A stretch of 64,000 nucleotides of DNA, taken from the NCBI RefSeq assembly GCF_018873765.1, contig NC_057925.1, positions 6,459,568 through 6,523,567 of the forward strand, given 5' to 3'. Position 1 is the first letter of the stretch, and every line of letters begins with the position of its first letter. Under the pieces are notes generated by a model. That model saw only the letters and a program-made list of their open reading frames with translations, was not told the DNA's origin and searched no databases. Shown piece after piece: positions 5,092 to 54,150 of the stretch. This DNA comes from Telopea speciosissima. Taxonomy: Eukaryota > Streptophyta > Magnoliopsida > Proteales > Proteaceae. A program made the translations under genes and the position numbers.

Positions 5092-5318
5092 GAGAGCATG
5101 ACACCAAATGTGCGAATATAAAGAATGCCACCCGGTCACGCCACCCTGTGCTGTAACATAGGGGCACGTGAAATGATTGCCACACCCCTCGGAACCTTGG
5201 AAATGACCACAGGTGCAATGGTCATTTCGCATGCCCCTATGTCAGGGCACAGAGGTGGCGTGTATGGCGCGACCGGGTGGCATTCTTTATATTTGCACAT
5301 TGGTGTCATGCTCTCGCT
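5092..5318. repeat. Long palindrome (hairpin repeat, family A)
   Basis: Two arms of about 110 bp face each other around a centre near 5204. The outer arm pairs GAGAGCATGACACC with GGTGTCATGCTCTC. The inner arm pairs ATGCCACCCGGTC with GACCGGGTGGCAT and CATAGGGGCA with TGCCCCTATG. The centre carries the shared hairpin core as GAAATGATTGCCACACCCC. The duplicate at 53.96-54.15 kb has the inner hairpin but lacks the outer left arm. Confidence 0.85.
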
Positions 5319-5958
5319 TTATATATGGGGTTGGGCATGCTACGCGATCTCGGTAAACTAACGACATACACCAATCATAAGGCATCACACAGAAGGGCAA
5401 GAAGGTCTTTTTCAAAGGGAGAGAGGAGAGGATGACACATACTGGGCATCCCGGTCAAGAGCCTAGCTATTTCCCAAATATATAAAATAAAAAAAATAAA
5501 AACTTTAAACATAATATGTTAAACTTAAGGTATCTCAAACATATTTTTTTCTACACGTTAGGTACCCAAATTTAATAGTTTACCCCTTTTTTTTTTTGGT
5601 ACAGACCTTTCTATTTTATTATGAAAAAAGAGCACATAACTTTTTGATTAACCAAAAAAATTAAAAAAAAAAGCTAACCGATCGTATAGTTCCTACACTC
5701 AGACTCAGCAGCATGCAAAATTACCGTTCCACTCCATGGAAATTGAGAACTCTCATTCATGTTGATGCATGTGCCAGCTGGGTCTCTGTTCTATCAGGAC
5801 AAAAAATGGCGTTCCAGGGTCTATGAAATGAAAATTTTGGCCAGTAGCCAAGGACCAACGTGGGGAATCTGCCACCTTCGGCAGCAGTTGGGACTTGAAG
5901 TTGGAACACTCGTCGTTCACTGTAATTCTTCCGCCGTAGTATTTTCAAGCTCGAATCA

Positions 5959-6678
5959 ATGGCGGAAACAAATAAAGATACAAAAACTGAAGATGATGAC
6001 GAAGATTACATGGGCGATCTCTCTCTGTTCCTCCCTCCCGAAACCACTGAGTCTTCTAAAATCTCTCAAAAAAAGGTAATCCATGTTTCCTTGATTTCTC
6101 TTCCTTTTTTTATTTTTCTTCGCCAGTTTACAGAACCCTAACTTCTCTCTTCTTCACAGAACTCCAACACCAAAACCCTCATCAATCAACCTTCAACGAA
6201 GAAACTCAAGACCTTAAACTGGCAAGAACAACGGAGACTCGATCGAGAGCGGAAGCAGAGAGACGAAGACGAGCAAACCCTAGCGAAACTAGATTATGCG
6301 ATACCTCCATCCAACATTGGGTTCAAGATGTTGAAGCAGATGGGGTACAATCCCGGTTCAGCGCTCGGCAAGGACGGATCCGGTCTGGCCGAACCGGTTA
6401 GTCTCGAGATACGGCGGTCGAGGGCGGGGATTGGGAGGGAAGACCCGCACAAGGAGAAGCAAAGGAGAGAAGAGGCCATAGCGGAGATGATGAGCAAGAA
6501 GGACGAGGCTTTAATGGCCGAGTTCGGTTCTCGGCAAAAGTCTCAGTGGAGAAGCCGCAAGATTGCTGGTGACTTTAGTAAGGCCAAAGCGGCACTTGCC
6601 CAGTTGGAGAACAAGGAGGTCATCGAATCCGATAACGAAGACGAAGACAGTGATGGAGATGAAGAGGAGGAAGAATAA
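5959..6678 (+). CDS. G-patch protein (GPATCH11/CCDC75-like), C-terminally truncated duplicate
   Basis: Exons 5959-6075 and 6160-6678 encode about 211 residues in one frame, with a GT-AG intron of 84 bp. The start ATG is the same as in the complete paralogue at 55,675. An acidic N-terminus holds the motif DYMGDLSLFLPP. A basic stretch follows, then a G-patch beginning near residue 92 with IGFKMLKQMGYNPG and GLAEPV, then a lysine/arginine-rich helix and an acidic tail. G-patch proteins bind DEAH-box helicases and RNA. This copy stops inside the acidic tail at 6676 and lacks the two last exons (cysteine-rich end) present in the paralogue, because the duplication ends at about 6700. Its promoter region was copied too, so it may be expressed. 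I see no stop or frameshift in the retained exons. It could be a young pseudogene or a shortened isoform gene. Confidence 0.8.
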
Positions 6679-6705
6679 GAACAATAGATAGCAGAAGACG
6701 TTGAA

Positions 6706-7095
6706 CCAATTTGCGTGCCTAAGGTTGATGTTTTTAGGTTTCGTCTCGATTTGCCTGCCAAAAGGCTGTTGATGTGGCATTTGATGCCATCGCCTTAATT
6801 TCTGGCCAGAATATTACCAAGGTGGTATCTAATAGTCTTGTACTAATTTGTGCGCTTAAAAATGCTTAAGTTGGTGTTTTAGAGTTTTACCTCAATTTAC
6901 GTGTCAAGAGGCTGTCGATGTGGCACCTGATAGCGTCGTCTTAATTGTTGGGCCGAAAGATTATCTATTCGGTATCTGATAATTTGTGTACCTAAAGGAA
7001 CTTAGGACGGAGTTCTCAGGACTTGTCTCAATTGTTGTGCCCAAAGATATTTGATATAGCATCTAAGGACCTCGCCTCGATTTACGTGTTTAAAT
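6706..7095 (+). repeat. Diverged tandem repeat, unit about 140 bp
   Basis: About three degenerate units each contain a version of TTTGCGTGCCTAAGG, then a TTT(C/A)GTCTCGATTT phrase, then GGCTGTTGATGTGGCAT. Units start near 6706, 6845 and 6985. The array begins where the G-patch gene copy is cut off and leads into sequence shared with the first Tat-like tail, so it is probably part of the element's repeat-rich region. Confidence 0.6.
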
Positions 7096-8578
7096 ATTTA
7101 AATGTTGACTAATAAGTAAATAAATGCAATAAAAAAGAACATACAAGATAAAGTGGAACACTTACCATAGGCAACTGCCTCCAGATCACGTAGTAGATGT
7201 GGCGAGAGGTGTCCCATAAGATTGTCCCGATCGGGTACTAATCTACCCGAGCATCCGTGTCTGTGGTTCCTACTAGTAGGCCATGTGAAGACTGACGTGG
7301 ACGCCTGCGGAAAGCCATCTCACTCAAAAGTCAAAAAAACGACAGTCTCGAAACGAAATTGGATGAGAAATATAAGGGGATGACCCCACTTATAAACAAA
7401 TACGCAAAGGGGGCCAAGCCATGGCGCCATGGAATATCCCCCACGGCGCTGTGAGGAATATCTTTAAAAAAAGAAAAAGAAATTCCCAAAAAGACCCTTA
7501 AAATAAAAATCTTCAAAAAAGGCCTTTAAAAATAAAACTTTTCAAAAAAGACCTTGGAGAAGGAAAAAATTTCAAAAAATACCCTAGAAAAGGAAAAATT
7601 TTCAAAAAAGACCCTAAAAAAGAAAAAATTTAAACAGACCCTAGAAAAGGAAAATTTTCAAAAAAGACCTTGAAGAATAAAATGTTCAAAAAAGGCCCTA
7701 AAAATTAAAATTTTTAAAAAAGACCCTAGAAAAGAAAAATAATTCAGAAAAAACCCTGAAAAAGGAAAAGATTTTCGAAAAGACCTTGGAAGAACCCTAA
7801 AAGTCGCGGGGAAGAACCCCAAGACACCTGAAAATTGGAAGAACCTTAAAAAACGAGGGGAAGAACCCCAAGACACCTGAAAATTGGAAGAACCCTAAAA
7901 GTCGCGAGGAAGAACCCCATAGCACCTGAAAATTGGAAGAACCCTAAAAGTCGGGGAAGAACCCCAAGACACCTGAAAATTGGAAGAACCCTAAAAGTCG
8001 AGGGGAAGAACCAAGACACCTGAAAATTGGAAGAACCCTAAAAGTCGCAGGGAAGAACCCCAAGACACTTGAAAATTGGAAGAACCCTAAAAATCGAGGG
8101 GAAGAACCCCAAGACACCTGAAAATTGGAAGAACCCTAAAAGTCGCAGGGAAGAACCCTAAAAGTCGAGGGGACGAACCCTAAGAAACCTGAAAATTGGA
8201 AGAACCCTAAAAGTCGAGGGGAAGAACCCCAAGACGTCTTGAAAATGAGAAAAACCCTAAAAGTCGAGGGGAAGAACCCCAAGACAGTTGAAAATAGGAA
8301 AAACCCTAAAGGTCGAGGGGAAGAACCCCAAAACGTCCTGGAAAAAAAAAAAAAAGAAGAAACTCTAATGGTCGAAGGGAAGAAAAACCCCAAAATATAC
8401 CAGTAACAATGATTTGGATTCTCTTTTGAAATTTATCGAAGGATTAACCACCTGTTTTAGCAACTCTACCGCCTTTGAGCAAAACATCAACAGTACATGC
8501 TCTTGGTGACAAAATAAGTTCGTCTTTTGTCTTTACCCTTCGGTTGTTGGCACAAGCCTCAGCCAAAGAGGGGCAAAC
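7096..8578 (+). mobile_element. Second Tat-like element: repeat-rich region before the 3' LTR
   Basis: The stretch from about 7215 repeats the order seen at 2135-3547: a unique block with a GATCGGGTACTA phrase, then the 28-bp A-rich array (about 7490-7785), then the 49-bp CCCTAAA array (about 7786-8395), then a shared tail. Unlike the first copy it continues to a polypurine tract, AAAGAGGGGCAAAC, directly before the LTR at 8579. No pol coding survives. Only the 3' portion of the element is present. Confidence 0.75.
7786..8395 (+). repeat. 49-bp minisatellite with CCCTAAA in each unit, copy 2
   Basis: About twelve units of the same 49-bp repeat as at 2926-3420, some shortened. The unit order and the variant units near the 3' end (with GACGTCTTGAAAA and GACAGTTGAAAATAGG) resemble those of copy 1. 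That suggests both arrays descend from one element and have since changed in copy number. Confidence 0.85.
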
Positions 8579-10667: not shown

Positions 10668-16428
<5,761 letters not shown>

Positions 16429-16471
16429 AGATGATTAATTTGTGTTCTTTTTCCCTCCTCCCTCGTCTCAC

Positions 16472-16960: not shown

Positions 16961-18434
16961 TTGAACAATCCTATATTGATAGGAACTCTATCGTAGATGG
17001 ATGGAAAGAATCTTAGATAGGATTGCATACAATAGTGATTGATACGAATTAGGAAACGGAATATTGTATGCCATGCCATCCCATGAACACTTAACTGTTT
17101 GAGAGAGATGCAGTGAATGAATCTCGATTGATAAACCCTCTTAAGGTGATGATTGGAGGCTTCTAATCTTCAGCTTATCACGAAGAAAAGTAAAATGAGC
17201 GGTGCTAATAAGACCCTTGGTCAATATATCAGCAACTTGATCATCACAAATTAAATGAAAAAAAAAAAAAATTAATTAATTAATTAGGACATTTATATAC
17301 TTTCAGATATGATACTCAACATCAACCCTAATGCAATAGTGGATTGCCCTTTAACTTTTTGTTTTCCCCAATTCTTTGTTGCTCAATGCAAGCAGTGAGA
17401 CCAGAATGCAGTCCTCTCCAGACTCACGACTCTACTCTCTAGTCTCTACTGGAGATGTATATGAATGGTCATAAATCTATATCTCAGCATACCTGTTTAG
17501 AGGAAATCATATTCAAAAAATTAGTTTCAAAAAACTATTTGAATCTATTCGCAAGGTAATCAGATACGGATACAAATAGTATTAATTTCTATTCGAATTT
17601 AATCCATTTACAGAAGGGTTTATGAATATTATAATATGTAATGGTAGTTTTGAACCTTCTTGGGGGAGTGTGGCTGCAGCAAGCAAAAGAGCAAGGATGG
17701 AAAACCTTAACAATATGGGTGGATAGCTTGCAAGTTGTGGAGTAGATTTCTCAAGGTAGTTAGGAAGGTTGAACATGGGACTTGTTCAATCTACATATGG
17801 ATATTTCTGTTTTGATAAAGTCTTTTGTTGATGTAAAAATTTAACAAAAAACAAAGCAGAAATATCTTCTATTGGTCATAGATGGAGAATAGAGCTAGGG
17901 TTGAAAAACTACAATCAGTTATAGTACATAATGTAAGAGAGAGAATAATAATGCTAACTGGTGATGTATCCTCGATGTGTACCTGTGCCTGACACAACCC
18001 AACACGAAAAGCAGATGGATATTATCATTTGGGGATTTTAGTGTCGGGTTTGACTAGTATTGCAGGATGAATCAATATACATTCAATAAACATACGAAAA
18101 ATAGAAAGGCGTGGACTGTTAGCTCCATATAGAGGACAGGCATTAATTCTCAATCAAAGATAAATCCATTTTAGCTTGTTTTATTACTAAAGGTCACCCA
18201 TCATTTTCATCCTATATCCATGGAAATATGGAATATACCTAATAGTTTTCCACATCAGTTGTTGATATTTATACGTATTGGATAAAAGTCTTATTGTTGT
18301 TCCAAGTAGTCAATTAAACTCTTTTGCCACGTGGTTGACTCACCAAATGAAATCCTCTTTTCAAGTCTAGTAATTGTTCAACTACCTAATATATCTCACG
18401 TTTGTTTATAATTAGCCTAATTAGATAAAGGCAG
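16961..18434. other. AT-rich intergenic stretch, nothing recognised
   Basis: I see no gene, RNA or named repeat here apart from a short A-tract followed by TTAATTAATTAATTAA near 17,270. Reading frames are short and without recognisable motifs. Confidence 0.5.
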
Positions 18435-18594
18435 AAAGAACGCCACTCGATCGCGCCAGACATAGGGGCACGTGAAATGACAATCGCATCTCTAATCATT
18501 TTTGGGGTTTTAGGGGGTGCAGCGGTCATTTTGTATGCCCTGTGTCAAGGCACAGGGGCAGTATGCGCTGCATGATCGGGTGGTGTTCTCTTTC
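18435..18594. repeat. Hairpin repeat (family A)
   Basis: The ends pair GAACGCCACTCGATCG with GATCGGGTGGTGTTC, and CATAGGGGCA with TGCCCTGTG. The core is GAAATGACAATCGCATCT. Close relatives are at 5.1 and 54.0 kb. Flanks TTAGATAAA and TTCAAATAAA may be a decayed target duplication. Confidence 0.7.
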
Positions 18595-18689
18595 CTTCAA
18601 ATAAATGAATAAAGTCCAATGCAATGACATTAATTTGGTTTTTTCAATTAGAGAAAATGTTGTTGCACCTTGTAATCAAGCTTAGTGAA

Positions 18690-22119: not shown

Positions 22120-25100
22120 TATTGGATAGTAGAGAATCTTTTCTCCCATTGGACAGCAAAGAATCCCTCACCTTTGATCACCATGTCATATATCAAAAAT
22201 TGACTTGTCAGATTGTGATCCTCCAGGTTTGGTAACTCCAATCCTGGACAGCCATGGCACCTACCTCACCTGCCTCACCAACCTTCCTTAACTGTGCATG
22301 GCTCATTTATCACAGGTGATATCTCTCAAGAGTTATTATTGGTAGTTCATTGATATGAATCCAAGCCTTGCATGGCAACCCTATCTCCTTGATTCATCAC
22401 CTTCCATTTATTGTCATGCATTATATATAGTTTATTATACAAAGAATATTCAAGGCAATGAAATACATTTTGAATTAATATGGTATCATGAGCCAAATGC
22501 TCCATTGAGCACTCAAAAGAAAAGAATTCGATCCCTCCACCACCCCATCTTTTCGTCCCTCCTTCAACCTCTCTTCTCAATATGGGTGACACCACCACCG
22601 CCATGACTACCACTCCTATCTCTATCTCATCTAATCCTCATCATGTGCGATTTGATGAGAATGTTTTTCCATTTAGTACATCCCAGCCCCAATGTCCTCC
22701 ACACCAATCACCACATGTAGACGCTGAATTTTGGCACCTTGGAAGTGTGACTCGACAATGATGATTAAAGCTCGATTGGCTTGCGTGGTGACCAAATGGT
22801 AGAAAATTACCAATTTACCCTTACCCCACTTTTTGTAACCAAACTGTCCCAAGTAGAGCCCAAATCTCTAGGATAGCCTTGTTTAACCATTTTAAGCCCA
22901 CATGTGAAATTTCACTCCAATCTGACGCCTTTTTGTCAAAATGACTGTCTTACCCCTGGCCTGGTTCTCGGTATCTGGACTGCCCGATTTGGCCCAAAAC
23001 ACTTTGGATGACCTTATTTGGTCATATTAAGCTTTCACGAAAAGTTTCGGCCAAATCGGATAACTTTTATGAAAATGACCATTTTGCCCCTGGCATGGTT
23101 CTTGGTACCCAAGCCACCCGATGTGACCTGAAACCATTTGGATAACTTTATTTGGTCATATTGTGCTTACACATTAAATTTCATGTAATTCCGGTATCAT
23201 TTGGACCTTGATCAGTGTGAAACACCATTTACGTGCTTTTCTCGATATCCGTGCTATTTTTAGGCAAAATCTGACCATATCTACCACACGGATGGAAAGT
23301 ACATGTTGAGACCTTCGCGGCGATATGTGGCGCATCAAAATCGGCCATTCGGATCAAAAGATATTGATGTTTGAATGTGGACCTTTAAAATGGAATCTCT
23401 AAAAAGAATATATAAAAAAAATAAAAAATAAATAAAAAATGGACCAGCCTGACCCGACCCAGCTAGGACTGTCGGCAGGGGACAAAGCCCCACCTTTTAG
23501 GCTGAGCCACACAAGGCCCATCACCCATGCCCACCTACCCAGCAGGCCTAGGCACACCCATGCCCAGGCTGCACAGCAAGCCTAGGCACACGCAAGCCCA
23601 GGCCATCACTCACCTTATCCCCAGCCTTTAAGGCCCCAAGGGTCTTTGAGACCTTTCATCGAACAGATTTTCTCCTGTATATAGGAGGCCATTTGGAGGG
23701 TTTAGGGACCGAGAAAATTCATGAAAAAATTATCATTGTGAAGTTCGTTCTCCCCTATGTCCATCCATTCTAGAAACATCTCCATATCATGCTTCCAAAG
23801 ACATATAAAATTCCTCAAATACCCCTTGTTCACCACTCTTGCCATTTGGGGCAAACACACTTGGAGTGGCTTTCGGTGCCTTCCGACGATAATTCCGGCC
23901 ATCCAAGGATATGTAGACTGAGCCCAGACACTTCCACTCTTCAAGGGTAGGTTTTCTATATCTTTATTTAGTTTTTATGTATTTCTTTTGATTTTCTTTA
24001 GTTAAAAGAGGCTGTTTTCAGTTAAAAAATCTTCAAAAATAATACAAGAGTGGTAAATTTCTGAAAATTTTAGGGAAGATGTTCCCCACTGTGCTTGATG
24101 TCCATTAATTTTCTCAAGCTCCAAATCACGGTTTTTGTGATATTTTTACCCCTATGAAGGATTTTAGATTATGTAAAATCTGAACCTGTGGATGGGGATT
24201 TGGACAAAATCATTATGACCATGTTAAATATCATGTTTTGATTAGTGGGTGTGGGCTCCGGTTTGATCCAATTCGGATCTGTGATGGGGATTTTGTATTT
24301 TTCTTTGTTTTCCCTTCTTTTTAGCATTTCAGAAAATATTAAAAATAGTATAAATGCATAAAAATTCACAAAAAAAATTATGGGATACATATTTCATCAG
24401 GATTGATTTTATGGGATCATTAATCACTGACATTAATGTTTGATCATTTTCATAGGTGTTCCTTACCATGTTAGGGATGTAGATGTCATTTTTGTATTTG
24501 TTGTGAAAATCCAAGAAAATTAGAAAAAATACATTTCTAAGCATTAAATTCTGTTTTAAGTTGTTTTAGAATGTTTTCATATGCATACATGCCCACCATG
24601 AATCATAACCATGCATAAAAAGTCACTTCTACCCTCGGGGGTATTTTGGTCATTTTGCGACCAAATCATATTTAGGGCCCTGGAAAGGTTTCTATCACTT
24701 TATTTGCATGTTTTAACTTTCATAAGCATGCTTTAAGTATAAGTTTGCATTTTCATGCATATTTGTATTTTTGCCTTAATAGGGGCATTTTGGTAATTTT
24801 ACCACTTTGTAGTATTGTATATATTTTAATAATTCACATGCATGCCATTAATCATGTTTAATCATTTCAGCATTTAAATGTGATTTCTTGCCTTTGTACA
24901 TATTTTGGTCCTCTAGGGGTATTTTCATAATTTTGACCATTTTGGCTCTACATAATCACCTAACTTAGGGGTAGTAATTAGGATTAAAACATTAATTTTA
25001 ATTAGCCTAATTAGGTCCATAAATTTCAACAAAGATAATCAAAACACAAAAAATAAAATAGTTTAATTACGTGCATAATACGCATAACACAACAGTATAC

Positions 25101-27565
25101 AATAGAGTTTGGTCTAGGAAGACCGGCCGTCGGCCGGGCGGTTGCTGGGTGCCTAACACCTTCCCAGCCCATAACTTGACACCTACCCAGAGATCTGGAG
25201 CAGACCATTCATTGAGTCATTGGAGTTAATTAGCGCCCTTCTCTAAAGAACCGGCATCATTTGTGGGTCCTAGACCCTGATCTAGGTGGCGACTCCCTAC
25301 ACCATCAACAACAATCCCCGCACCGCTCCCACACTCGGGTGCACCACACCAGAAAAAGGTCGGGGATCAATCTTCATCCGTTGCGCCTACATCACCACTC
25401 ATCACCCCATGGGTATCTTTGCCATTACAATCAAACTCTTTCCCACCATTGGATGTCCCACCACCACCAATACCTAAACCCCCGAACCCAGTTGATCCCC
25501 CACCCGCCATCTCCATAGCCCCACCATTAACACCCTCACCCACGGCTCCCACTCTTTCCCCCACATCTACACCGCCACCCAGTCCCCCACGTCGTACAAG
25601 GCTGTTAGCAGACATTTATGCCCTCACCGAGGCTCAACCCTCCTCTCTTCACGCCAACCTATCATCCTCACCGTGACCCCCATTGGCGTTCTGCCATGTC
25701 CGAGAAATTTAATGCCTTATTGAGTAATAACACGTGGTCTCTTGTTGCACGGACTCCTAACATGAATTTAATTGGCTGTAAGTGGATATATAGGATTAAG
25801 AGAAAGGCGGATGGCTCTCTTGAACGTTACAAGGCGAGGTTGGTGGCCAAGGGTTTCCATCAGCAGCTCGGGGTTGATTATGATGAGATCTTCAGTCCCG
25901 TCATCAAACCCACAACCATTCGGATAGTTCTTTCCTTTGCCATCTCCAATGGATGGTCTGTTCACCAACTGGACATTAACAATGCCTTCCTTCATGGCAT
26001 CTTTGATGAGGAAGTGTATATGACACAACCACAGGGGTTTGAAGACCAATCTCAGCCCACTCATGTCTGTCGCCTTCATAAGTCCCTATATGGGCTTAAG
26101 CAGGCACCACGGGCCTGGTTTCAACGATTATCTCAGTTCTTGGTCTCCTCAAGTTTCACCCCATCTCAGACAGACACATCCTTATTCATTTATAAGCAGG
26201 GGATGAAGAACACTTATGTCCTTGTTTATGTGGACAACATCTTGGTCACTGGTAATGACCCCTCACATATCACTAGGCTATTGGCAAATCTTGCATCTGA
26301 ATTCGCCATCACTGATCTGGGCCACTTGAACTTTTTTTTGGGTTGAGGCAATATATACAACCACGTGGGGGATTCTATCCCAAGCTCGGTACATCAAAGA
26401 TCTGATTGACAAAGTCGGGATGAGTGATTGCAAACCGGTTCTCACTCCCATAGCCACCTCAGTCAAAGCATCCTCCACAGGGGGTGCCCTGTTTACTGAT
26501 CCAACAAAGTACAGGTCCATAGTTGGAGTGTTACAATACGCTACATTGACTCGTCCGGACATTACTTACTCTATTAATCGAGCCTGTCAATACATGCATG
26601 CTCCAAGTGATGATCACGGTCCATGGTCAAGCGCATCCTACGATATCTCCAGCACACAAAACATTATAGGCTCTTCATTACTCACTCTAGCTCCCAAAAT
26701 CTACAGGCATTCATTGATGCCGACCAGGCGGGGGATGATACTGATCTTAAGTCCACAGGTGGATATGCCATTTATATGGGTCCGAACCTCATTTCATGGA
26801 ACTCTAGGAAGCAAAAGACTGTGGCCCAAGCGTCCAATGAATCAAAATACAAGGCATTGGCCGATGCATGTGCCGAGCTCACCTGGTTATAATCTCTATT
26901 TGGAGAACTGGGCATTCCCCTCACTCAGCCACCAGTGCTATGATGCGATAATATTGGAGCTACATATCTGTCCGCTAATCCGGTATTTCATGCGCGTACA
27001 AAGCATGTTGAAATTGACTTCCATTTTGTTCGCGACAAAGTCACCAAAAAGGAACTCCATGTTCGCTTCATCTCCACCGCTGATCAGATCGGCAATATTA
27101 TGACCAAGGGCCTATCTTCAAACCGGTTTGCATTTCTTCGTGACAAGCTGAAGATCCGAGCCATCGAACCTCCACCTTGAGGGGGTGTATTGGACAGTAG
27201 AGAATATTTTCTCTCATTGGACAACAGAGAATCCCTCACCTTTGATCACATGTCATATATCAAAGATTGACTTGTCAGATTGTGATCCTCCAGGTTTGGT
27301 AACTCCAATCCTGGACAGCCATGGCACCTACCTCACCTACCTCACCAACCTCACCAACCTTCCTTAACGGTGCATGGCTCATTTATCACATGTGATATCA
27401 CATGTGATATCTCTCAAGAGTTATTGGTAGTCCATTGATATGAATCCAAGCCTTGCATGGCAACCCTATCTCCTTGATTCATCACCTTCCATTTATTGTC
27501 ATGCATTATATATAGTTTATTGTACAAAGAATATTCAAGGCAATGAAATACATTTTGAGTTAATA
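22120..27565 (+). mobile_element. Ty1/Copia element with TA...TA LTR ends, broken, holding another LTR
   Basis: LTRs are 22,120-22,480 and 27,188-27,565, with ends TATTGG and TTAATA. A perfect 5-bp target duplication AAGAG flanks it (22,115-22,119 and 27,566-27,570). The intact site is visible in the sister LTR near 32,925. A primer site TGGTATCATGAGC follows the 5' LTR, and a polypurine tract GAGGGGGTG precedes the 3' LTR. Recognisable parts are the start of gag (from 22,579), reverse transcriptase (about 25,680-26,340, with RYKARLVAKG and LYGLKQAPRAW motifs) and RNase H (about 26,620-27,170). The element is broken. LTR divergence by eye is about 3-4 percent. It must be younger than the Ty3 element it entered. 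Confidence 0.9.
22716..25301 (+). repeat. Family L LTR inside the Copia element
   Basis: The 2.6-kb sequence starts TGTAGACGCTGAATTTTGG and ends GGTGGCGACTCCCTACA, the ends of a long Ty3-type LTR. It lies between gag-start and reverse-transcriptase parts of the Copia element. Flanks CCACA and CCATC do not form a clean target duplication, so a rearrangement as well as an insertion is possible. Its middle and 3' part match the outermost LTR pieces at 21,050-21,557 and 33,328-34,967. The interior has long AT-rich stretches and a phrase GGGGTATTTTGGTCATTTT repeated in variants. Confidence 0.8.
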
Positions 27566-30500: not shown

Positions 30501-32373
30501 AGTCATCTGGGATTGGCCTACTCCATCCTCCATCTTTGATGTTTGTAGCTTCCATGGACTTGCATCCTTTTATCGGAGATTTATTTCACATTTTAGCTCC
30601 ATTGCAGCACCACTCACAGCTTGCATGAAGAAAGGTGTATTTGAGTGGACTAGTGCAGCCCAGGAAAGCTTCGAACAGTTGAAGGAGAAGTTGATTTCAG
30701 CGCTAGTTTTAGCCCTACCTAACTTTGACCTTGTGTTTGAGGTTCATTGTGATGCATCAGGTACAGGTATCGGCACAGTTCTTAGTCACGGTGGTGGCCC
30801 TATTGCCTATTTTAGTGAAAAGGTTAACGGCGCAAAGCTTCGTTACAGCACTTACGACTTGGAGTTCTATGCGATTTTTCGCACTCTAGAGCACTGGCGA
30901 TCCTACTTGATCCACCGGTAATTTGTTCTTTACACTGATCATGTGGCGTTGAAGTATCTTGCAGGACAACATAAGCTTAATTCCAGGCGCGCAAAGTGGG
31001 CAGAGTTCCTTCAGGAATTCACTTTCAATATCAAGCACAAGGTTAGCGTTCAAAATCAGGTGGCGAATGCTCTTAGCAAAAAGAAGAGTTTGCTTACCAC
31101 CATGCACAACACCACCCTTGGCTTTGATACTTTTTCAGGATCTCTATGCGAGTGACCCTTACTTTTCTAAGGTGTTGATGGATGTGCAAGCAAGGGCCAC
31201 TACCAATTTTGTCATCCATGATGGTTTTCTATTCAAAGGAAATCGACAGTGTATTCTCGACTGTTCCCTTCGCCTGAAAGTGATTGCAGACTTACACAGT
31301 GAAGGACACTTTGGAAGAGTCAAGACTCTACAATTGGTGCGTTCTCGCTATTTTTGGCCTAAGCTTACCACGGATGTGCAGCATTTTATGCAACAGTGCC
31401 AGATTTTTCAGACTTCGAAGGGGCAGTCCACCAATGCAGGCTTATATATGCCTTTGCCCATCCCTACTGCACCGTGGACTGATATCTCCATAGACTTCGT
31501 TCTTGGGTTACCTAAGACTCAAAAGGGCATGGACTCTATTTTTGTGGTGGTAGACCGTTTCTCTAAGATGGCGCATTTCATTCCTTGCCGAAAGACGATG
31601 GACGCATCTCGCATTGCAGATTTGTTCTTTAGAGAAGTCTATAAGTTGCACGGCTTACCCCACACCATTACTTCTGATAGGGACACCAAGTTCCTTAGTC
31701 ACTTTTGGCTGCAATTATGGAGGAGTATAGAGACGGCACTGCAGTTCAGTTCAGTCTTTCACCCTCAAACTGATGGCCAAATCGAAGTTGTCAACCGTTC
31801 TTTGGGAAACTTGCTTCGTAGTTTGACTAACGACAACCCTCGCTCTTGGGAATGTCGATTATCCTTGGGTGAGTTTGCATGCAATTGCTCTGTGAACCGC
31901 TCCACCGGCCTTAGTCCTTTCATGATTGTTTATGGACGACAACCTACATCTGCAGTGGACCTACCTCCAATCCCATTCCCGGACAAGCCACTAGTACAGG
32001 TTGAAGAAATTGCATCACAGTTGCGGCGTATTCATGATGAAGTACACTAAAAGCTGGTGACCAGTACAGCTACCTACAAGCAAGTAGCCGACCAGCGGCA
32101 TCAACAGGTTCTATTTGAGCCTGGTGATTATGTGTGGGCTTACTTGCCGCCTGAGCGTCAACTAGCCGGTACCTATGGCAAGCTCAGCAATAGGAAAATT
32201 GGACCTTTGGAGGTCTTGGAGCGTATCAATGATAACGCCTACCGCTTGAAGTTGCCTTCCCATATTCGCACCCATGATGTATTCAATGTGCGACATTTGA
32301 CCTCTTACCATGGTGATTCCTCCGATGATGGTACTGCGAATTCGGGGACGAATTCTTCTAAACCGAGAGGGAA

Positions 32374-33322: not shown

Positions 33323-33327
33323 TATTG

Positions 33328-35245: not shown

Positions 35246-44832
<9,587 letters not shown>

Positions 44833-45530: not shown

Positions 45531-47104
45531 ATTCTACTTGGATTTAATTAATTTCTCATATAATGTTATACCTTGGGGAAGCGCTAAGAGGCATAAGTGG
45601 TGGCTGCCAGTACAGTAGAGTGCTAGCCTAAGTCTGAGACCCCAACCCCTAGTCTCCTCAATAGGAGACGATCAAAAAAAAATTTGTTATACCTTCAAAT
45701 GTATATATTTATACACCCTATAGTCTTCCGTTCCCTCTTGTAACCCTAAATTGTATTTTGTCACACATGGCAAACTCAAATCCAGGATTTCAAAACAAGG
45801 AATCAGTATCTAAATTGGGTCTAGCACAATTTTGATCCAATTATATTCCATACCAATTAGAATCGATTGTGAATCAGTCAAATTCCACCTGAACCCTAGA
45901 AACACTGTATGGAACTATGGATCGGCCACTCTAGAATGCAAGAATTAGGATCAGGTTAGGCTGATTCTGGTTTGAATCAGCTGATTCACCCGATTTAATT
46001 CCATGTCAGATCAACCGAAATCAGTCATGAATCCACTAGATTCTGCTTGAACCCTAGAAACGTTGTGTGGATTGCTCGCTCTCTAACGACTAGAATTGGG
46101 TTCGAACTTAGCCGATTCAAATTATAATTGGCTTATTCACCCAAAATCCGATTCCAGTTTTTTAAATCTTTGTTCTGATTGAATTGAAACTTGAAATATT
46201 AATGACAAGCCTTGGTATTTATGTCCACAATTTTTCAACCTCATCTCATCTGAGCTACCACGCATCAGAAAGACTTAGAACCATAGTACTTTTTTTTTTT
46301 TTTTTTTTTTTTCACCAAGGACCACAAAAATACTAAGGAATTTAATTAGGCCTTATTGGGCAAAAATTGAGAAACAATACTAAGGAAATCCATGGACAAA
46401 TCGGACACCAAAAATCCGTAGGCCCTGTTTGTCTAGAGGGATCTTAGGTGGGGTGGTATAATGCTGATGTTGCATTTCAAAATCCCACCCATACCTTATT
46501 TGTTAATTTAAGATGATGAACTTACAAAAGCTCTGGGGATATCATTAATTATTTTATCTATTAGTGTAATAATTTCAAAATTCCACTCCTTTGGTTACTG
46601 TTAAATGAAACAAATAACTTTACATCAACTTTACCTTAACATTTCTATTCAACAAAATCTCACTAACATGTGGGTCTCATCTTCTCCTCTAAACAAGCGG
46701 GACCCACTTAAAAATAGAATGGGCTATAGGACAGTTTAATTTGTAAAACAATGTGGTCATGTTATTAATGGAGAAGTACAATGATACAGCCATGCAAATT
46801 GCAATTTACCCCAAAAAAATAAAAGATTGCAATCAGCCAACAGCACATGGGCAGTGTCCTGATTAGCCCAAAATTAGGCTTTAATTCCGAAGGCCAGCTG
46901 GCCTCATACGTGTTTTTTTATTCTTTTCTTCCCCACTCTTTACCAGATAAACAAAACCTGTAAAGTCTAGGACTTCACCTATCTTGATTAATGATTCTCC
47001 ATTGGGAATTTTTGTCCGATCTTGGACTTTGATGGGCCACAGCTCATTCCTAGATCTCAGTTGGGCTCCACTGAACCTTAGATGGGCCCGGAGGCTAATT
47101 ACTT
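45531..47104. other. Intergenic; diverged repeat at 45,830-46,180, otherwise nothing recognised
   Basis: Two diverged units of about 180 bp contain CCTGAACCCTAGAAACACTG and a GAATCAG/GATTC-rich context (45,830-46,180). A T-tract of 32 bases is at about 46,290. A short duplicate of the phrase CAGTTGGGCTCCACTGAACC appears at about 47,062 and 47,200. No gene was found. Confidence 0.5.
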
Positions 47105-48009
47105 ACCCATGAGACTATGACAAAGAATGAAAGAATTGACTTTTGTGGCTGCATTGTCTATTTTGATGGGTCACAGTTCGTTCTTTCATAGACTCAGTTG
47201 GGCTCCACTGAACCTTGGAAGAGAATTCTCTGTTAATTGTTAGATCAACTACCTCTTCCAAAGACTTTTTAGATGATACAGATGTTCAAGATGGAATTCT
47301 TACTGCATTAATGTGTACGGTATATCAAGAGCAATCCTGATAGCAATCCTGATACGAAAGCTCCAATCATGGTTTGTAAATCTCAGTATCAGGATCAGAT
47401 CGGTGGATCGGATTGGATCCGCTGGATCGGGATCATCCAAACTAATGCCAAATATGACACATTTGCCCGTCTATTGTAAAAAAAATAAAAATCTAATTTT
47501 TTTTTTACCTTTTTACCCTTGTTTACATGTGGATCGGATCGGTCTCGACATGAGTCGACATATTGAAGTCCGAGATCAGATAAGATCAATTGCTAAACGT
47601 GTCAAGCTCAATCATCGACCAATTAATAATAAATTGTGGAGTAGTGGCCCGATGGTCATCCAACTGACACCAACCATTAATCGACGATATATAGTCCGAT
47701 TAGCCTGTTTAAGCCCATTTAGACCAAGTATGGCCCATTTAAAGATCATTTGTAACCCAATTTGTCAATTAATCCATTTATAGTCCGATTATTAGTCCAA
47801 TTACCTTCAGCCCAATTATGGACCTGTAATCAACCGAGCGAATATAAATATGATCATGCCCTAGACTTTCAATTAGCAAAATGGGCAAAATCGATACGGG
47901 ACCTTAAATTGGTGGGGACCAATTAAATCCAAGCAAAGTTGACCGTGCTCGATCGATTGACACCCCTAGTCATGTACAAGAAATTGTTGTCCATGTTCCA
48001 TACAATAAC

Positions 48010-51000
48010 TGTCACACCCCTATCCCAATAAAGGATAAAATACTATAAATGGGGCATGATAGGATGCTTACCAACATCCTAACCACTACAAGGATCTCGA
48101 TGAAGTGGTCAATGCACAGTCTTACACTAATATTAAATTACAATAGTATTAGAACGCGGAAAGTAAAGGAATATTTCATTCCAAAAGATCAGAAATGAGC
48201 GGAAGCGTTACAAATACAAAAGGTTCAAGTCTACGTGATAGACAATTTAATGCTTTACATTTCGACCCAAAAGTTTTACTAGGAACTGAAACTGTAGAAA
48301 TACTACCAAATACATATACAATACCTACCCATGATAAACAAAATAACAAAAGATATAAATTGTGCCTCAATGGCACAGACCATGAGTGTACGCTATCATC
48401 AAGATCCAAAATCACGGGCTCCTATCAGTCCACATCAAAAGAAAGAAGATCACCATCATTCATCACCTGCATATAGCTAAAAAGGGTTGCGCAACGGGGG
48501 TAAGCTCCACTGAGCCCAATGAGGGGATGGGGAGTGCACATACATACATTCACATATAGTCCATGATGTATGAAATGTTAAATATATTTTTCCCCTAACA
48601 AACAATCTAAGTCATGGTATATGCTATTGTGATAACTCGGAAGACACTGAGGGTCACTTATCCTATCGCCCCAGTGAAACCTCAATTATCACGAGGGAGC
48701 CTACGCTGGTAGAAGCCATCATGACCACCCAGTGGCAGACCCCGATAGCCATCACTACCCCTGACCTGGCCTCTCCCGCCTCCACAGCTATCAGGTGCTC
48801 AGACTATCCAACACATAAACCCCTGTTGGCAAGGGTCGTAGCATAAGGGAGCATAAATCCTAGCCGCAGATATACTACATGCAAATCCTATCGTCCCGAG
48901 AGGTATTCCGGGTGCATCAACGTCCCATTCCATCTAGTACCCGGATATCAGCACGGCACGGCATATACAGACCAGGATGGTGAACAATGATTTTAATAAT
49001 AAAAATTTTGGGTTCCGACACCGGCATACCCAGCACCATAACCCAATGAAATAAAGTAAAGCAACATATCAGCAATTCATCAATTTATATCCAACATAGT
49101 TTATATGCAAGGATGCAACATGTTAAAAATGAATGCAAGCATAAACACAATTATATGATCTATATATATATATATAACAAGCCCAAATGTCACCCAAAAC
49201 CCACTCACAGTTCGTTTGCTTGTCGTTCGATGTGTTTTGTAAAGTTTCATTTGGTGCACGTACTCCCGTATAGATTTCAAAGTCTGAGGACGCATGAGAA
49301 CAATGTTAGAAGTGTATAGGTGGGTCCCACGAAGGGTCACAACAGTTTATTTAAAGTTTGGGTCTAAACAACAGGGGCGGATGAAGGAACTGAGTCAGCC
49401 AAGTAAATCCGGTAGTTCCCCCGCCACCATTCTTTTGAAATCTGAGAAGATTTTCACCTTCAGCCTTTCATCCATGGAACCACAAGGGTCCCAGGGTTAG
49501 GGAGGTGAGTCCAAACCTTCGTTGGAGGTCCTAAACATCTAGCCCTTTATAGGACTTAGGGGATTCAAGGGATTGGATCCAACACCAATGTTTTCCCCAA
49601 ATATTACAGACAAGTAATTCTAAATATGAAATCCTTAAGTCAGTCTGATTCCCAGCCTTCTTCGTGAGATCCAATAGCCTCATGAGGTAGGGGAGGGTGT
49701 CCTAAACCTTCCCAAGGGCATAATGTCTCATATCATTCATTGGTCTTGGGAGATCCCATAGATTGGTCTCTCCTTAGGATTTTCCATTCCTAGGTTAAAG
49801 TCACAAGTCCCTTAGGACAGCAAGGGGGTTTTGAGGACATCAAGGGTAGACCTTGGCACCTCGATAGGTCAATTAATTAATATATTTAGGGAGACCACTT
49901 TAGATGATAATTAACCCCCAATAAGATTTATTAAGTCTTAAACAAGCAGCCACAATGTGGGCGAGGTCACCGGACTAAAGTTATGTTCTAAAGTTGCTGT
50001 CAAAATACATCAGCTAGGTTTGGGCCCACTTTTGAGGGTCTTTTATTTGGATTGGGTCCACGATTACTTTAAAAAACTGTATCCCTTTGAGTCTATTTTA
50101 CAACACAACTTGAATCATGTCGATACGATATGTATAGACAAAGTTATGGCCAAAATACTGAGCAGTGGTCATGTTGTAAACTGCGGGCTGATCCACAAAC
50201 GGATTCTATTGTGTGAGTCCGCCCATACATCCGGTCGAACCCTGAGACACGTCCGAGACACACCCAAGGGGGTGGATCCACGGGAGGATGCACGATGGTG
50301 AGTCCGGTCCTTAGTCCGCTCGTAGCAGGAATGGATTTTTTAAGTTCGAACTTCATCCAAATTGATCCCCAATGCCTCCAATGGCTTTAAGGGCTTGTAG
50401 GAATGACTTCCAAGGTTCATTAGGGTCCTAAATATCCAAATGGCATAAAACATTAAGCCATCTATAGTCTATATCCAATTCCTCAACCCAAACTTGAGTT
50501 TTTGGGTAAAAATCTAGGTTTTCATGGCTTGGGTTGAATGGCACTTCAAAGAGAGGTGCAAGGGTGTGCAATGGCACCCAAAGGGACTAAGAACAAGCCC
50601 CAACACAAGAGCATTGGGTCCCAAGTGGAACCCAAGCTATTTCCAATCTCAAAATCCAAAACCCTAAGCTAGAAATTAGAGAAATGGAAAGGGAGAGATG
50701 GAAATCACTCACCTCCAATGGAGAACCAAAACCTAGGGCTAGGTGAGCCCCCTTTCACCTTCTTTTCTTCTTCTTCCTTTCCTTTTCTTTTCTTCTTCTC
50801 CTTCTTCCTTTCTTTCCTTTCCTTTTCTTCTTTCCTTCTCCGGACAGCAAGAGGGGAGGGAGGGGATGAGGTGTAGGAGGAGAGGACAGCAACTTCCTCT
50901 CTTCTCCCTTCCCTTCACTTCTTCTACTTCTTCTTCTTCTTCCTTTATTCTTCTCCTTTCTCTCCTCTAAGGTTTTAACAATTGGGAGAAATGAAAGAGC

Positions 51001-51816
51001 TTAAGAGATCCCTCCTCTATTTACCCCCCTTAAGGCTAAAATAACCAATAAATGTAAGCTCCCTAAACTACCTTAACTTTTATTCCCTTTTCCCTACAAC
51101 AAGCCATGGTCCAACTATTGGGCCAAGATTAAACCCATGGTCCTTGAACCAACCCAACTTCTCAAACCTAAAAAGAACCTATTGGCAATAAAACAAAATG
51201 GGCCTTAGGGTCAGTTTAGTTAGGTGCCCTCAAACACTTAGTGGCCTCTAGGTTTAAATAGGTTTTTGTTGGGCTTTAAGTCTTGTTTGGCCATGTCTTT
51301 ACCCATTAGGTCTAGTTAGTTAGTTAGGACATGTTTGGTTTAGCCTTAAGTCTCAAAAGACCTATTAGTCCTTAGGCTTTGTTTGGTTTTGAGTTAAATA
51401 TAAAACTCATTAATTATTTAAGTTAAGTCTTGTGGGCCCACTTTCATGACCCAATTAATAACTTAATGGTAAGGGTGAGGGTCCATTTAGTCTAAGGGTC
51501 TAAGTATGGTGTCCGAGACACGGGAATGTGGTTCCCACAGAAAAATAAACCAAAAAGGCAGATAATAGCACTGGCGGATCATCGAGCGGTTTCATTTCGA
51601 GTGAGTCCGATCGTGACTCTGGTACTGTTGTCAGGGCCCAAACTTCAAGGAAAGCTACGGGGCTTTGGCCCACACCTCCAAAACTTCGAGGGGATTCTTA
51701 TTATAATATTTTGAGTCCAAGGTTATCAGTGTTGACCATAGCCATAAGGCATTACCCTTCAGTAAGGTCTAAATTGCCCCGGGGTATTAGGGTATATTTT
51801 GGGTGCAGGTGTAACA
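48010..51816. mobile_element. Solo LTR of a Ty3/gypsy element, 3.8 kb
   Basis: The sequence starts TGTCACACCCC and ends GGTGTAACA, ends typical of long LTRs in Tekay/Del-type chromoviruses. A perfect 5-bp target duplication ATAAC flanks it (48,005-48,009 and 51,817-51,821), and D1 shows the empty site at about 4665-4680. No gag or pol coding was seen, so it is a solo LTR. Contents include an (AT)n run near 49,158 and a CTT-rich stretch at 50,755-50,965. Confidence 0.85.
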
Positions 51817-52134
51817 ATAACCCAGAAGCATCATGATATTTGGGTTCCTTAGATGGATCACCTTCCAAATTACATTAAAGAATTGTTCCTCTTCATGAAT
51901 AGAAAGTCCCACCATGTTGATGCTCTTCACAGCCAAAATCTGTGGAAAACCCACAACACTCATCCATGGCTCAAACTATGAATATATATTCTCCTATCCT
52001 ATAACAATATAATCCATTAGTTCAGGTACCAAAATCATACTTGGCCATTAGGAAATTAAGCTTTATAAACAAAACCCCTATGACCTCCCCAAGAATGTTC
52101 TCCTCACTGAAGCTGCTAGTAGCAGATTGAATCT

Positions 52135-53648
52135 TCTTACCATATGAGTTTTCATAATCTTGTATATATGCTGACTAAGCTAATTGATTCTAATTTATTC
52201 TTTCCATTACACAAAGCAATATCTTAGGATGTGATTAGGCAGTAATATGGGATGATTCATCCCTTGTATTTTGTAATAATCTTGTATAACTTCAACCCTC
52301 ATATCAATGGATAAGACACACAAAATCTTTCCATTCATTTTATCATTTTATGCCAATCTTCAATATGCTTAACATGGTATCAGCCTAGCACGGTTCTAGG
52401 ACACTTGCTTTTCTTCTCCAATGGACGGCACCACCACAACCCTCCCTGCCGCCACCGCTGCCACCACCATTTTACCTACTTCTCCTTATTTCCTCCACAG
52501 TTTCGATCAGCCGGGCACGCCACTCTTCACCCCGCTACTTGATGGCGATAACTTTCCAACTTGGAATCGCGCCATGATCATGGCTCTTGAAGCCAAGAAC
52601 AAACTCCAATTTCTTGATGGCTCCTTGCCCAAACCGGAGCCAACTTCGGCCGATCTCTCTTCTTGGATTCGTTGCAATAGTATGCTTCGTTCTTAGATCG
52701 TTCACTCTACGGTTCCAACTATTGCACACAGTATCCTTTGGTTCGATACTGCTCGTGATGCCTGGCTCGACCTGCAGGCTCGCTTCTCTCAAAAGAATGC
52801 ACCTCGAATTTTTGAGATCCGCCGCTCTATCTCCATTTTGCGCCAAGATCATGATTCCATCTCGGCCTACTACACCAAACTCAAGGGTCTCTGCAATGAG
52901 CTTTCTTCCTATCGCACCCTCTCGTCATGTACTTGCGGCACCGCTACCACCCTTCATGGCCGGTTTGAAGCCGACTCTCTTATGGATTTCTTACAAGGCC
53001 TCAATGATTCTTACTCGGCTGTTCGCAGCCAGATTCTTTTGATGGATCCTCTTCCATCGGTTGCCAAGGCTTATTCCTTGCTGTTGCAGGAGGAGCGCCA
53101 ACGCAATGGATAAGACACAAAATCTTTCCATTCATTTTATCATTTTATGACAATCTTCTATATGCTTAACATGGTATCAGCCTAGCATGGTTCTAGCACA
53201 CTTGTTTTTCATGAACGAACCAAGCACATCGAGATCGACTACCATGTTGTTCGTGAAAAACTTCAACAGGGGTTCCTACAGCCAATTAAGATTGCTAGCT
53301 CCGACCAATTAGCCGATCTCTTCACCAAGTCCCTCCGTCGTGAACCATTTCGGCATCTCAGTTCCAAGTTAGGCGTTTGTGACCTCCACGCTCCAACTTG
53401 AGGGGGAGTCTTACCATATGAGTTTTCATAATCTTGTATATATGTTGACTAAGCTAATTGATTCTAATTTATTCTTTCCATTACACAAAGCAATATCTTA
53501 GGATGTGATTAGGCACTAATATGGGATAATTGATCCCTTGTATCTTGTAATAATCTTGTATAAATTCAACCCTCATATCAATGGATAAGACACACAAAAT
53601 CTTTCCATTCGTTTTATCATGTTATGCCAATCTTCTATATGCTTAACA
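52135..53648 (+). mobile_element. Small Ty1/Copia derivative, non-autonomous, 1.5 kb
   Basis: LTRs of 240 bp each (52,135-52,374 and 53,409-53,648) begin TCTTACCATATGAG and end ATGCTTAACA. A 5-bp target duplication AATCT flanks the element (52,130-52,134 and 53,649-53,653), and D1 has the empty site near 4995. A primer site TGGTATCAGC follows the 5' LTR, and GAGGGGGAG precedes the 3' LTR. The interior holds a gag fragment (about 52,421-53,112; LLDGDNFPTWNRAM), then a second copy of the LTR tail plus primer site (about 53,106-53,200), then the end of RNase H (DQLADLFTKSL). It is broken and cannot code for a full set. The LTRs differ at about 9 of 240 positions. Confidence 0.9.
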
Positions 53649-53963
53649 AATCTCTACCAGGGTGTTGGTTTTGCAATTGACCAGTTTCTGCTACCTACTG
53701 AGAAACTCCCCTCAATCCCCTCCTTCAATTCTGTAATGCCGAACAGAGAGTATGTGTCATGTACTGATTGTGGGAGCCGGGAGAACTACAAGGAAAGGAA
53801 TTGGGAAAATAAATTTTCTCTTTTTGGCACAAATATTAGTGATATCCACTGGTGACAAACAGAAATATCAAAAGCTTGTTTTAAAGTTCCCCTCAGCCCA
53901 ACCCAAAGAAAGCGACTTGAAAATTTGCAATTATCAATTTTTTATTCATAATTATCTTTAGGG

Positions 53964-54150
53964 TGAAGGAACGCCACCCGGTCGTGCCACAAGTCACCCC
54001 TGCGCCCTAACATAGGGGCGCGTGAAATGATCACCACACCCCTTGGAACCTTGGAAATGACCATGGGTGTGATGGTCATTTTGCACGCCCCTATGTCAAG
54101 GCACAAGGGTGGCGTGTATGATCGGGTAGCATTCTCTATCTGTGCACATT
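53964..54150. repeat. Hairpin repeat (family A) in D2
   Basis: Arms pair GAACGCCACCCGGTC with GATCGGGTAGCATTC, and CATAGGGGCGCGTGAAATGA with its partner ending CACGCCCCTATG. Core copies are GAAATGATCACCACACCCC and AAATGACCATGGGTGTG. This is the counterpart of the longer palindrome at 5092-5318. Confidence 0.8.

Follow-up and report, generated by a model that had tools for sequence, protein, structure and literature searches.

Within a 64,000-nt stretch of Telopea speciosissima DNA (the whole of which is called the window here), eleven places had been singled out by a sequence-only reading as hairpins with unrelated arms and one shared 19-base core. The question that they raise is what this core is: a segment that keeps acquiring new arms or one that is under selection, for example as a protein-binding site, as that reading proposed.

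Hairpins of several foldback families

Both the shared core and the hairpin folding are well borne out in the window. With up to 3 mismatches, the core 19-mer has 8 matches, a count attained by none of 100 shuffles and set against a mean of 0.02 expected. Of the 11 listed places, 10 are much more stably folded than their shuffles, with z at -5.4 or lower (RNA parameters, 60 dinucleotide shuffles each), against a background in which 5% of 60 random windows fall below -4 and the lowest reaches -8.9. The remaining place at 42056 is a weak fold, and the listed cores at 5169, 18475, 42056 and 44153 are absent from those 8 matches and were detected only by matrix or two-part scans. The core itself is a two-part motif, AAATGACC-N4-TACCCC, and occupies the inner stretch of a single arm or of both, while the loop is free of it; a core at the loop centre is rejected.

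The hairpins are short Mutator-type foldback MITEs of several families with palindromic bodies of about 160 to 220 bp, an assignment that follows from their 9-bp target duplications, inverted ends, and palindromic body. They do not form one MITE family aligning end to end, just as the sequence-only reading had held: the eleven places represent about six families by eye, and 93 genome contexts, compared with the motif masked, sort into 22 clusters. The same reading stated that the outside varies and the ends are not shared, which is right for the arms but wrong in part for the ends, since the arm words that it quoted lie mid-arm and the real ends further out were missed. These true ends resemble one another (GGATCTTTATC, GAATCTTTATC, GGGAAAATTT, and GGGATT).

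Family F1, with inverted terminal repeats GGATCTTTATC / GGAAAATTATC and a palindromic body, comprises 2 plus-strand elements in the window (elements are given without strand unless one is named). The first (13396..13573; GAATCTTTATCC...GAATAATTCTCC; z -5.4) carries the motif at 13460-13477, 64 bp from the end, and an 8/9 target duplication (CTTTCTCTT/CTTTCTCTC at 13387-13395 and 13574-13582), and the second (38034..38211; z -11.0) has the motif at 38097-38114, 63 bp from the end, between 9/9 duplications of TTTTCCTAC (38025-38033 and 38212-38220). Family F3 is represented by palindromes at 12277..12415 (GGATCCTCTAC end; motif at 12333-12350 (+); z -7.9), where the outer border is lost among runs of C and a target duplication is undecidable, and at 15433..15621 (z -14.7). 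Each arm of the latter contains the motif (15498-15515 (+), at a distance of 65 bp from the left end, and 15539-15556 (-)). The element has a target duplication of ATGAAAATA (15424-15432 and 15622-15630) and sits inserted within another hairpin of the type found at 39298..39388 (F7), whose own motif (39336-39353 (-)) is degenerate. For an empty-site comparison, the paralogous regions at 12 kb and 38 kb have diverged too far.

Three palindromes form family F4, and none of them shows a target duplication at a match of at least 8/9. That at 5092..5315 has arms CCACCCGGTC, is found by its self-reverse-complement match (z -15.8), and contains motif-like copies with 3/14 mismatches each in the motif scan (5171-5188 (+) and 5210-5227 (-)); its duplicate locus at 53969..54134 (z -11.0) has copies at 54025-54042 (+) and 54064-54081 (-), and a decayed relative recognised by fold and motif scans at 18430..18600 (z -6.0) has copies at 18475-18492 (+, degenerate) and 18514-18531 (-). 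The F2 palindrome at 43899..44094, identified by self-match and motif scans (z -10.4), lies between 9/9 duplications of CCCAAAAAC (43890-43898 and 44095-44103), and its motif copies at 43953-43970 (-) and 44003-44020 (+) point outward, not inward, so that their direction with respect to the element ends is reversed. Next to it, a half element related to F2 (44090..44235, plus strand; z -5.4) is recognised by a self match of 43914-43996 to 44126-44207 and has a degenerate motif near 44152-44169; another motif copy at 15836..15853 (+; AAATGACCCAAACACCCC, then CCTCCAGCTCC) lies in an apparent half F2-type element.

Two elements stand apart from these families. One has ends GGGAAAATTT / GGGAGAGGG (40177..40359; z -5.4), the motif at 40231-40248, and a 9/9 target duplication of AAAAATTTA (40168-40176 and 40360-40368) that the automatic search had missed and that emerged with the border placed by eye. 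The other is a weak, decayed element on the minus strand (41972..42133; ends GGGGAAAG / GGGAAAATAAT; motif at 42055-42072 (-); z -2.1) whose flanks AAAAGAATT / AAATGATTT match poorly as a target duplication. Other hairpins of the window are free of the motif, among them a Mutator-type one at 36813-37022 that has a perfect 9-bp duplication.

Genome-wide, 21 of 44 F1 elements have target duplications at a match of at least 8/9 when the border may move by up to 2 bp, compared to 0.001 under the null. It is this comparison that singles out a length of 9 bp, whereas the steady fall of perfect duplications over lengths of 7, 8, 9, 10, and 11 (33, 24, 18, 10, and 3 of 100 entries) does not.

A strictly spaced motif within and outside MITEs

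In the genome of 822.9 Mb, 8413 sites match the core 19-mer with up to 2 mismatches, compared to 13 for the reversed control. Exact two-part sites with a gap of 4 number 4825 (reversed control 4), while there are 179 with gaps of 0-3 (control 31) and 95 with gaps of 5-8 (control 23). The window behaves alike: a gap of 4 gives 10 sites at up to 1 mismatch, each other gap from 0 to 12 gives 0 or 1, and 300 permuted versions of the motif give a mean of 0.03 sites and a maximum of 1. A chance origin of the motif is ruled out by these shuffled, permuted, and reversed controls in window and genome. No match was found in a core scan of viral contigs.

About 100 places with exact sites were listed, of which 30 loci and then 40 more were extracted for study. 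In 28 contexts taken from the 22 clusters, the full motif is RAAATGACCANNNTRCCCCY with little signal outside it and sharp borders, as seen from R at -1 in 24/28 and Y at +18 in 26/28, neither of which had been set by the searches. A at +8 is present in 21/28 contexts, partly forced in the 9 taken from a search with A/T gaps, and in 13 of the 19 others.

The motif is not always hairpin-borne. Under strict palindrome scoring, 14 of 57 distinct motif loci are palindromic compared to 2 of 60 control windows (15/60 as run, before three duplicate loci, L032, L044, and L060, were merged). Only 15 of the 127 motif entries, all families included, have a mirror copy with up to 3/14 mismatches no more than 90 bp away.

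Beyond the MITEs, about eleven repeat contexts in which no MITE anatomy is visible also have the motif, as judged by eye on the 22 clusters; these contexts comprise groups A, B, and C as well as singletons. In the window, such sites include 22939..22956 (+; AAATGACTGTCTTACCCC) in a diverged repeat of about 134 bp with genome relatives L107 and L119, 23073..23090 (+; AAATGACCATTTTGCCCC) in the next unit of this repeat, and an exact motif at 24638..24655 (-; AAATGACCAAAATACCCC) in repeat group A with genome relatives L101, L102, L105, L108, L109, and L110. One repeat family has two motif copies 169 bp apart, and in two window repeats the copies, some of them with 2-3/14 mismatches, are 134-149 bp apart. 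The letters in the gap tend to track their surroundings, with ACCC in GC-rich MITEs and AAAA or ATTT in AT-rich repeats, so that the site is no single copied block.

Position within the elements and constraint

Elements were also sampled by their ends alone, which gave 951 matches to the exact ends for F1 and 314 for F3 (the latter including both strands of near-palindromes), each with a reversed control of 0; both families are thus of high copy number, as is usual for such MITEs. Among 73 F1 rows (of about 100 listed, leaving out near-identical copies of one subfamily), 64 contain AAATGACC at up to 1 mismatch, and the motif lies 62-70 bp from the end in 63 of the 71 rows within 2 mismatches; F1 copies sampled by the motif have an offset of 61-67 in 30/44. 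For F3, the first 40 of the rows listed, some of which are two arms of one element, contain the motif at up to 4/14 mismatches in 39 cases, 32 of them with an offset of 59 from GGATCC, and the mean mismatch is 2.4 at a gap of 4 compared to 4.15-6.45 at the other gaps from 0 to 8. The first half in F3 is mostly CAATG(A/T)CC and not AAATGACC (first base C in 32/39, sixth base T in 16/39). In both families the core thus begins about 64 bp inside the end behind a variable stretch of arm; outside these families, the element at 40231 is an exception with a distance of 54 bp.

Among 17 F1 representatives chosen with arms less than 72% alike, one of which is probably not F1, the first motif half averages 85% identity and the arms average 56%; permuted controls in the F1 test have a mean of 0.018, and the one that reached 0.90 presumably is a shifted form of the motif. 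Between ends and core that stay fixed, the F1 arms grade from one into the next. This pattern resembles drift more than replacement and does not support the notion of a core acquiring new arms.

We also compared 40 young F1a copies matching a motif-free arm query at 97-100%, in which 45/553 motif columns, 22/160 gap columns, and 175/1360 inner columns differ. Split by base type, the motif and inner counts are 4/200 and 2/195 for A, 35/233 and 79/585 for C, 4/40 and 86/424 for G, and 2/80 and 8/156 for T. After allowing for base type there is no clear extra constraint on the motif in these copies, and its overall gain is mostly base composition; clear selection on inserted copies is therefore rejected. 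G and T do change less in the motif than in the inner columns, on few events, and, with copies matching the query this closely, inserted copies may still be under a weak constraint. The proposal of a core under selection is hence supported between lineages by the strict gap of 4, the sharp borders, and the unequal F1 identities, but not on inserted copies, and conservation appears to act on the lineages that spread.

Candidate readers of the motif

We give an even chance to the motif being a protein recognition site that serves in the MITEs as the inner site of a mobilising complex and is shared with other repeats. A DNA-binding protein would contact the two half sites, and this protein could be a MULE transposase or a host protein that the transposase needs. 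MITE lineages losing the motif would stop spreading, and the other repeats that bear it would use the same protein. In favour of this reading are the strict gap, the sharp borders, the F1 target duplications, the set distance from the ends in F1 and F3, and the abundance of MULE domains. The maize Mu elements have a MURA-binding site inside the TIR at about 25-56 bp. Likewise, the motif is a candidate recognition site at a set distance within the TIR and apart from the terminal bases, but its sequence is different and its distance is about 64 bp. MULE domains are abundant in the genome (150 scored of 827 candidates, with transposons and domesticated genes pooled), and three open-frame loci among the 150 matches have no motif copy at up to 1/14 mismatches (a copy at 2 is present in one of them) and lack a clear long-range inverted repeat, so that no autonomous partner emerged from these three. 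These loci count against this reading, as do the orientation in F2, the spacing at 40231, the variant first half in F3, the motif-less hairpin at 36813-37022, the rarity of mirror copies, and the young copies without clear extra constraint.

The copies outside MITEs, which need no transposase, also weigh against it, and since the other repeats would use the same protein, host factor and transposase are nearly equally likely as its identity. The motif might be read by a transcription or chromatin factor of the host with the transposase uninvolved, a tentative explanation that we nonetheless take seriously: unrelated elements could have kept or evolved the site for the expression, the open chromatin, or the nuclear position that it gives; alternatively, the factor could silence the elements and the sites mark its targets. 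The same gap-4 site in the contexts without MITE anatomy, its paired copies in one repeat family and in two window repeats, and gap letters that follow their surroundings all fit a host factor, while the spacing of about 64 bp between MITE end and motif is left unexplained and the young copies reveal no visible host conservation. Also against this explanation, the only plant silencing motif family that we compared, the REM/CLSY3 motifs of Arabidopsis siren loci, consists of TTTTGCTTAT or AAGCGGAT repeats with a 1-nt spacer (PMC12270911). It is similar as a short motif with a strict spacer that in Arabidopsis is found at many silenced loci and read by a DNA-binding complex, but the motif described here has two dissimilar halves with a 4-nt gap, and we reject identity of the two because sequence and spacer differ by eye (PMC12270911, as far as covered).

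Common descent without function appears unlikely. One old MULE would have left the motif as the least-changed part of its inner TIR, and other repeats would have gained it by MITE insertion. F3, F4, and F5 do have by eye a CAGACACA-like box upstream besides the motif, so the families may be related, and the young copies without clear extra constraint are also consistent with descent alone. However, drift by itself should not produce the difference in identity between motif half and arms among F1 representatives selected for their dissimilar arms, the remaining repeat contexts contain no further MITE sequence by eye and differ in their gap letters, and the reversed control shows that chance origin of the motif is rare.

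Repeated capture of new arms by the core, for example when fold-back synthesis copies the flanking DNA into each arm, is very improbable. In its favour, the arms are unlike between F1, F2, F3, and F4, and of the duplicated loci 5092-5315 has a longer palindrome than 53969-54134, its outer arms being 95% complementary along 37 nt. The graded F1 arms and the many copies flanked by target duplications, as in transposition, speak against it, and at the 54026 locus the left arm may equally well have been lost and some 211 bp of other sequence have taken its place.

Foldback MITEs that make 9-bp duplications are already known. The MuTAnT elements of Medicago truncatula, 90% of which are 200-300 bp long, are foldback Mutator-like MITEs and as such share short hairpin-folding bodies, G-rich ends, and 9-nt target duplications with the elements studied here (PMC4486113). 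Unlike these, MuTAnT is a single family inserting into TA microsatellites, whereas we find several families with different arms and a common internal two-part motif of which the part of the MuTAnT report covered makes no mention (PMC4486113). The Tm1 Mutator/Foldback family of root-knot nematodes has 9-bp duplications and composite TIRs, and these resemble our elements in having separate conserved and variable motifs with a conserved one at the inner TIR end, according to the portion of that report consulted (PMC3169594). As described there, Tm1 TIRs are tandem repeats of about 14 bp, while the arm between end and motif here contains no such array, and, unlike in Tm1, the motif also occurs outside its transposon type (PMC3169594). 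In the parts of the literature covered by searches with the motif letters and the subject, no counterpart came up to a motif of strict gap that a number of MITE families share with about eleven further repeat contexts, at more than 8000 sites (19-mer, up to 2 mismatches).

It is conceivable, though we hold this only tentatively, that one host protein with two recognition halves four bases apart reads the 20-bp site throughout a large part of the mobile DNA of this genome, in Mutator-type MITEs and unrelated repeats alike, a site on which the unrelated elements would have converged or which would be a mark of host surveillance. If so, transposons of different classes would have a common address in this motif. 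If it is a protein site, it would give direct access to the question of how unrelated mobile elements are able to spread in, or come to be recognised by, a single plant genome.

Two halves at a fixed spacing

The window is plant-like nuclear DNA (C10:6459568-6523567), and the genome searched comprises 822,943,500 bases in 1287 contigs. The sequence-only reading had proposed that at least eleven hairpins with unrelated arms share a 19-base core, and we find both the core and the folding well supported. The core has 8 window matches at up to 3 mismatches (0.02 expected; 8 reached in 0/100 shuffles), and 10 of the 11 hairpins fold at z ≤ -5.4 relative to dinucleotide shuffles (-2.1 for the one at 42056); among 60 random windows, 5% fell below -4 with a minimum of -8.9. 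The core sits in the arm's inner portion, outside the loop, and a matrix scan of the window found further relatives beyond the hairpins.

When the core was split into AAATGACC and TACCCC for a free-gap scan, a gap of 4 gave 10 window sites at up to 1 mismatch and each other gap from 0 to 12 gave 0 or 1, with a mean of 0.03 sites (maximum 1) for 300 permuted versions of the motif. Six of these ten sites fall in the 4% of the window marked as hairpin. Genome-wide, with the pattern read backwards as control, the core at up to 2 mismatches has 4178+4235 sites (control 2+11), the exact gap-4 motif 2341+2484 (control 4), and an A/T-only gap with TRCCCC 1492+1517 (control 0); pooled gaps 0-3 and 5-8 gave 97+82 (control 31) and 48+47 (control 23), respectively. 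Contig C102 (15043-54039) carries 13 copies of AAATGACC-N6-TACCCC spaced by ~2.5-6.6 kb, with TCAAAT in the gap (CCAAAT in one), and these near-motif copies with the wrong gap are possibly a large tandem array.

Mutator-type hairpins and conservation between lineages

Their GGATCTTTATC/GGAAAATTATC-related ends, palindromic bodies and 9-bp duplications identify these hairpins as Mutator-type foldback MITEs, the same type of element as MuTAnT (PMC4486113). In hairpin family F1, duplications matching at 8 or 9/9 positions flank 21 of 44 elements when borders are placed by end sequence with shifts of up to 2 bp, compared to a null of 0.1% for left and right flanks paired from different loci. Window hairpins with 9-bp duplications are those at 13461, 15500, 38096, 40231 and 44004. 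The 15500 element (15433-15621) is nested in another hairpin (15389-15682) of the type of 39298-39388, inserted at a core-like stretch of that family, so placed that its target duplication ATGAAAATA shares bases with the beginning of the host family's AAAAGACACCTCTACCCC.

The paired hairpins 5092-5315 and 53969-54134 sit in a duplicated stretch (3566-6702 and 47101-56420; blocks 79-94% identical) whose second copy is enlarged by insertions; their left arms are unlike, with ~211 bp of other sequence instead at 54026. In a diverged duplication (10668-13787 and 35246-39528; blocks 69-88% identical), the MITEs inserted between conserved blocks differ from one copy to the other. Tandem arrays with units of ~30 bp and ~49 bp (AGAACCCTAAAAGTCG...) occur twice, ~5 kb apart (2430-2852 with 2930-3378, and 7469-7684 with 7788-8404).

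Queried by its two ends only, with the motif outside the query, F1 gave 459+492 matches (control 0). We analysed 73 of ~100 listed rows, omitting near-identical rows of one subfamily; among these listed matches, 64/73 have AAATGACC at up to 1 mismatch (permuted motifs: mean 1.8%, single outlier 90%), and in 63 of the 71 that have it within 2 mismatches it starts 62-70 bases from the end. Across 17 representatives chosen for arms less than 72% alike (one probably not F1), mean identity is 56% in the arm versus 85% in the motif half. Family F3, likewise queried by ends only, gave 165+149 matches (control 0; near-palindromes counted on both strands). Among the first 40 listed, 39 have the motif at up to 4 mismatches in its 14 fixed bases; 32 of these 39 place its start 59 bases from GGATCC, and the mean mismatch is 2.4 at gap 4 versus 4.15-6.45 at other gaps from 0 to 8; the first half in these 40 is mostly CAATG(A/T)CC and thus differs from F1 at one or two positions. 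The distance from motif to element border is 61-67 in 30/44 motif-sampled F1 copies and 65 in the F3 elements with a clear border (L015, one L090 element and window 15500); in the window it is 63 at 38096, 64 at 13461 and 54 at 40231. The motif therefore stands at almost one distance in two families with dissimilar arms. By eye, a box resembling CAGACACA precedes the motif in F3, F4, F5 and some singletons (L046, L048, L059, L065, L067, L082, L089, L094 and L096 are cited for it), and F1 and F2 seem to be without it.

The earlier suggestion of a core under selection is supported for the comparison between lineages, where constraint is seen, as for a site required for transposition or expression, but the test on inserted copies did not clearly indicate preservation by the host. 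The latter test is weak because its 40 copies of F1a, collected by a 61-base motif-free arm query, are young (97-100% match to the query). They differ at 8.1% in motif columns, 13.8% in the gap and 12.9% in the inner region; motif C and A are not better kept than elsewhere (15.0% vs 13.5 and 2.0 vs 1.0), and G and T are (10 vs 20 and 2.5 vs 5.1), with few events.

Contexts and extent of the motif

We read 60 loci from core and exact-motif searches (three duplicates), 40 further places from the exact gap-4 list and 20 from the A/T-gap list. From the exact gap-4 and A/T-gap searches, 93 motif-masked contexts formed 22 single-linkage clusters, the biggest of which (47 contexts) joins F1, F3 and some others via weak similarity. 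Judged by eye, about 11 of the 22 have no visible MITE anatomy, namely groups A, B and C, the L069/L070/L095/L104 group, and the singletons L031, L050, L063, L103, L106, L111 and L112. In the window, the group A copy at 24638 and the group B copies at 22939 and 23073 are neighbours of decayed, nested retrotransposons, which have left RVT_2 at 25618-26346 and protease, RVT_1, RNase H and integrase within 29230-32050. Window repeats place motif copies 134-149 bp apart (22804, 22939, 23073; 24638, 24782, 24916; 34082, 34231), some at 2-3/14 mismatches, and a genome repeat family has a pair 169 bp apart (C1:45578849/45579018); gap letters vary in both.

Borders were analysed in 28 contexts, comprising at least one from each cluster plus six extra members. 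Position -1 is A/G in 24/28 and position +18 is T/C in 26/28, neither base being fixed by the searches; position +8 is A in 21/28, or in 13/19 without the nine contexts from a search permitting only A or T there. Little information is added beyond -1 and +18, so the common stretch is 20 bases with three positions free, RAAATGACCANNNTRCCCCY. Such sharp ends would fit a binding site, as similarity left by common descent should tail off outwards.

A putative recognition site

We infer that the motif is a putative recognition site for a DNA-binding protein, which in MITEs would serve as the inner contact of a mobilising complex. Several observations argue against a simple reading with the transposase as this protein. 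Just 15/127 entries contain a mirror copy as well, and in family F2 the motif's orientation is inverted. The hairpin 36813-37022, a long palindrome with Mutator-type ends (arms 82% complementary, 7-base loop) and a perfect 9-bp duplication AACAATATG (36804-36812, 37023-37031), has no motif at up to 3/14 mismatches and is thus a counterexample to every such MITE having it; nor do the hairpins at 19972, 20388, 42258 and 45224 have one at 3/14. In three open-frame loci of Mutator-like elements (MULEs), out of 150 scored matches, the motif is absent at up to 1 mismatch (one copy exists at 2), and no long-range inverted repeat stands out clearly. Given the motif copies in other contexts, contact by a host protein is nearly as likely as contact by the transposase itself.

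In our literature searches for the motif or the elements, which reach few subscription journals, we recognised no description of the motif, and it may nonetheless be described already. Words like AAATGACCAAAATACCCC may also occur in other flowering plants. If they do, the motif could be of old origin and wide distribution, and a host factor would then be favoured as its binding partner.
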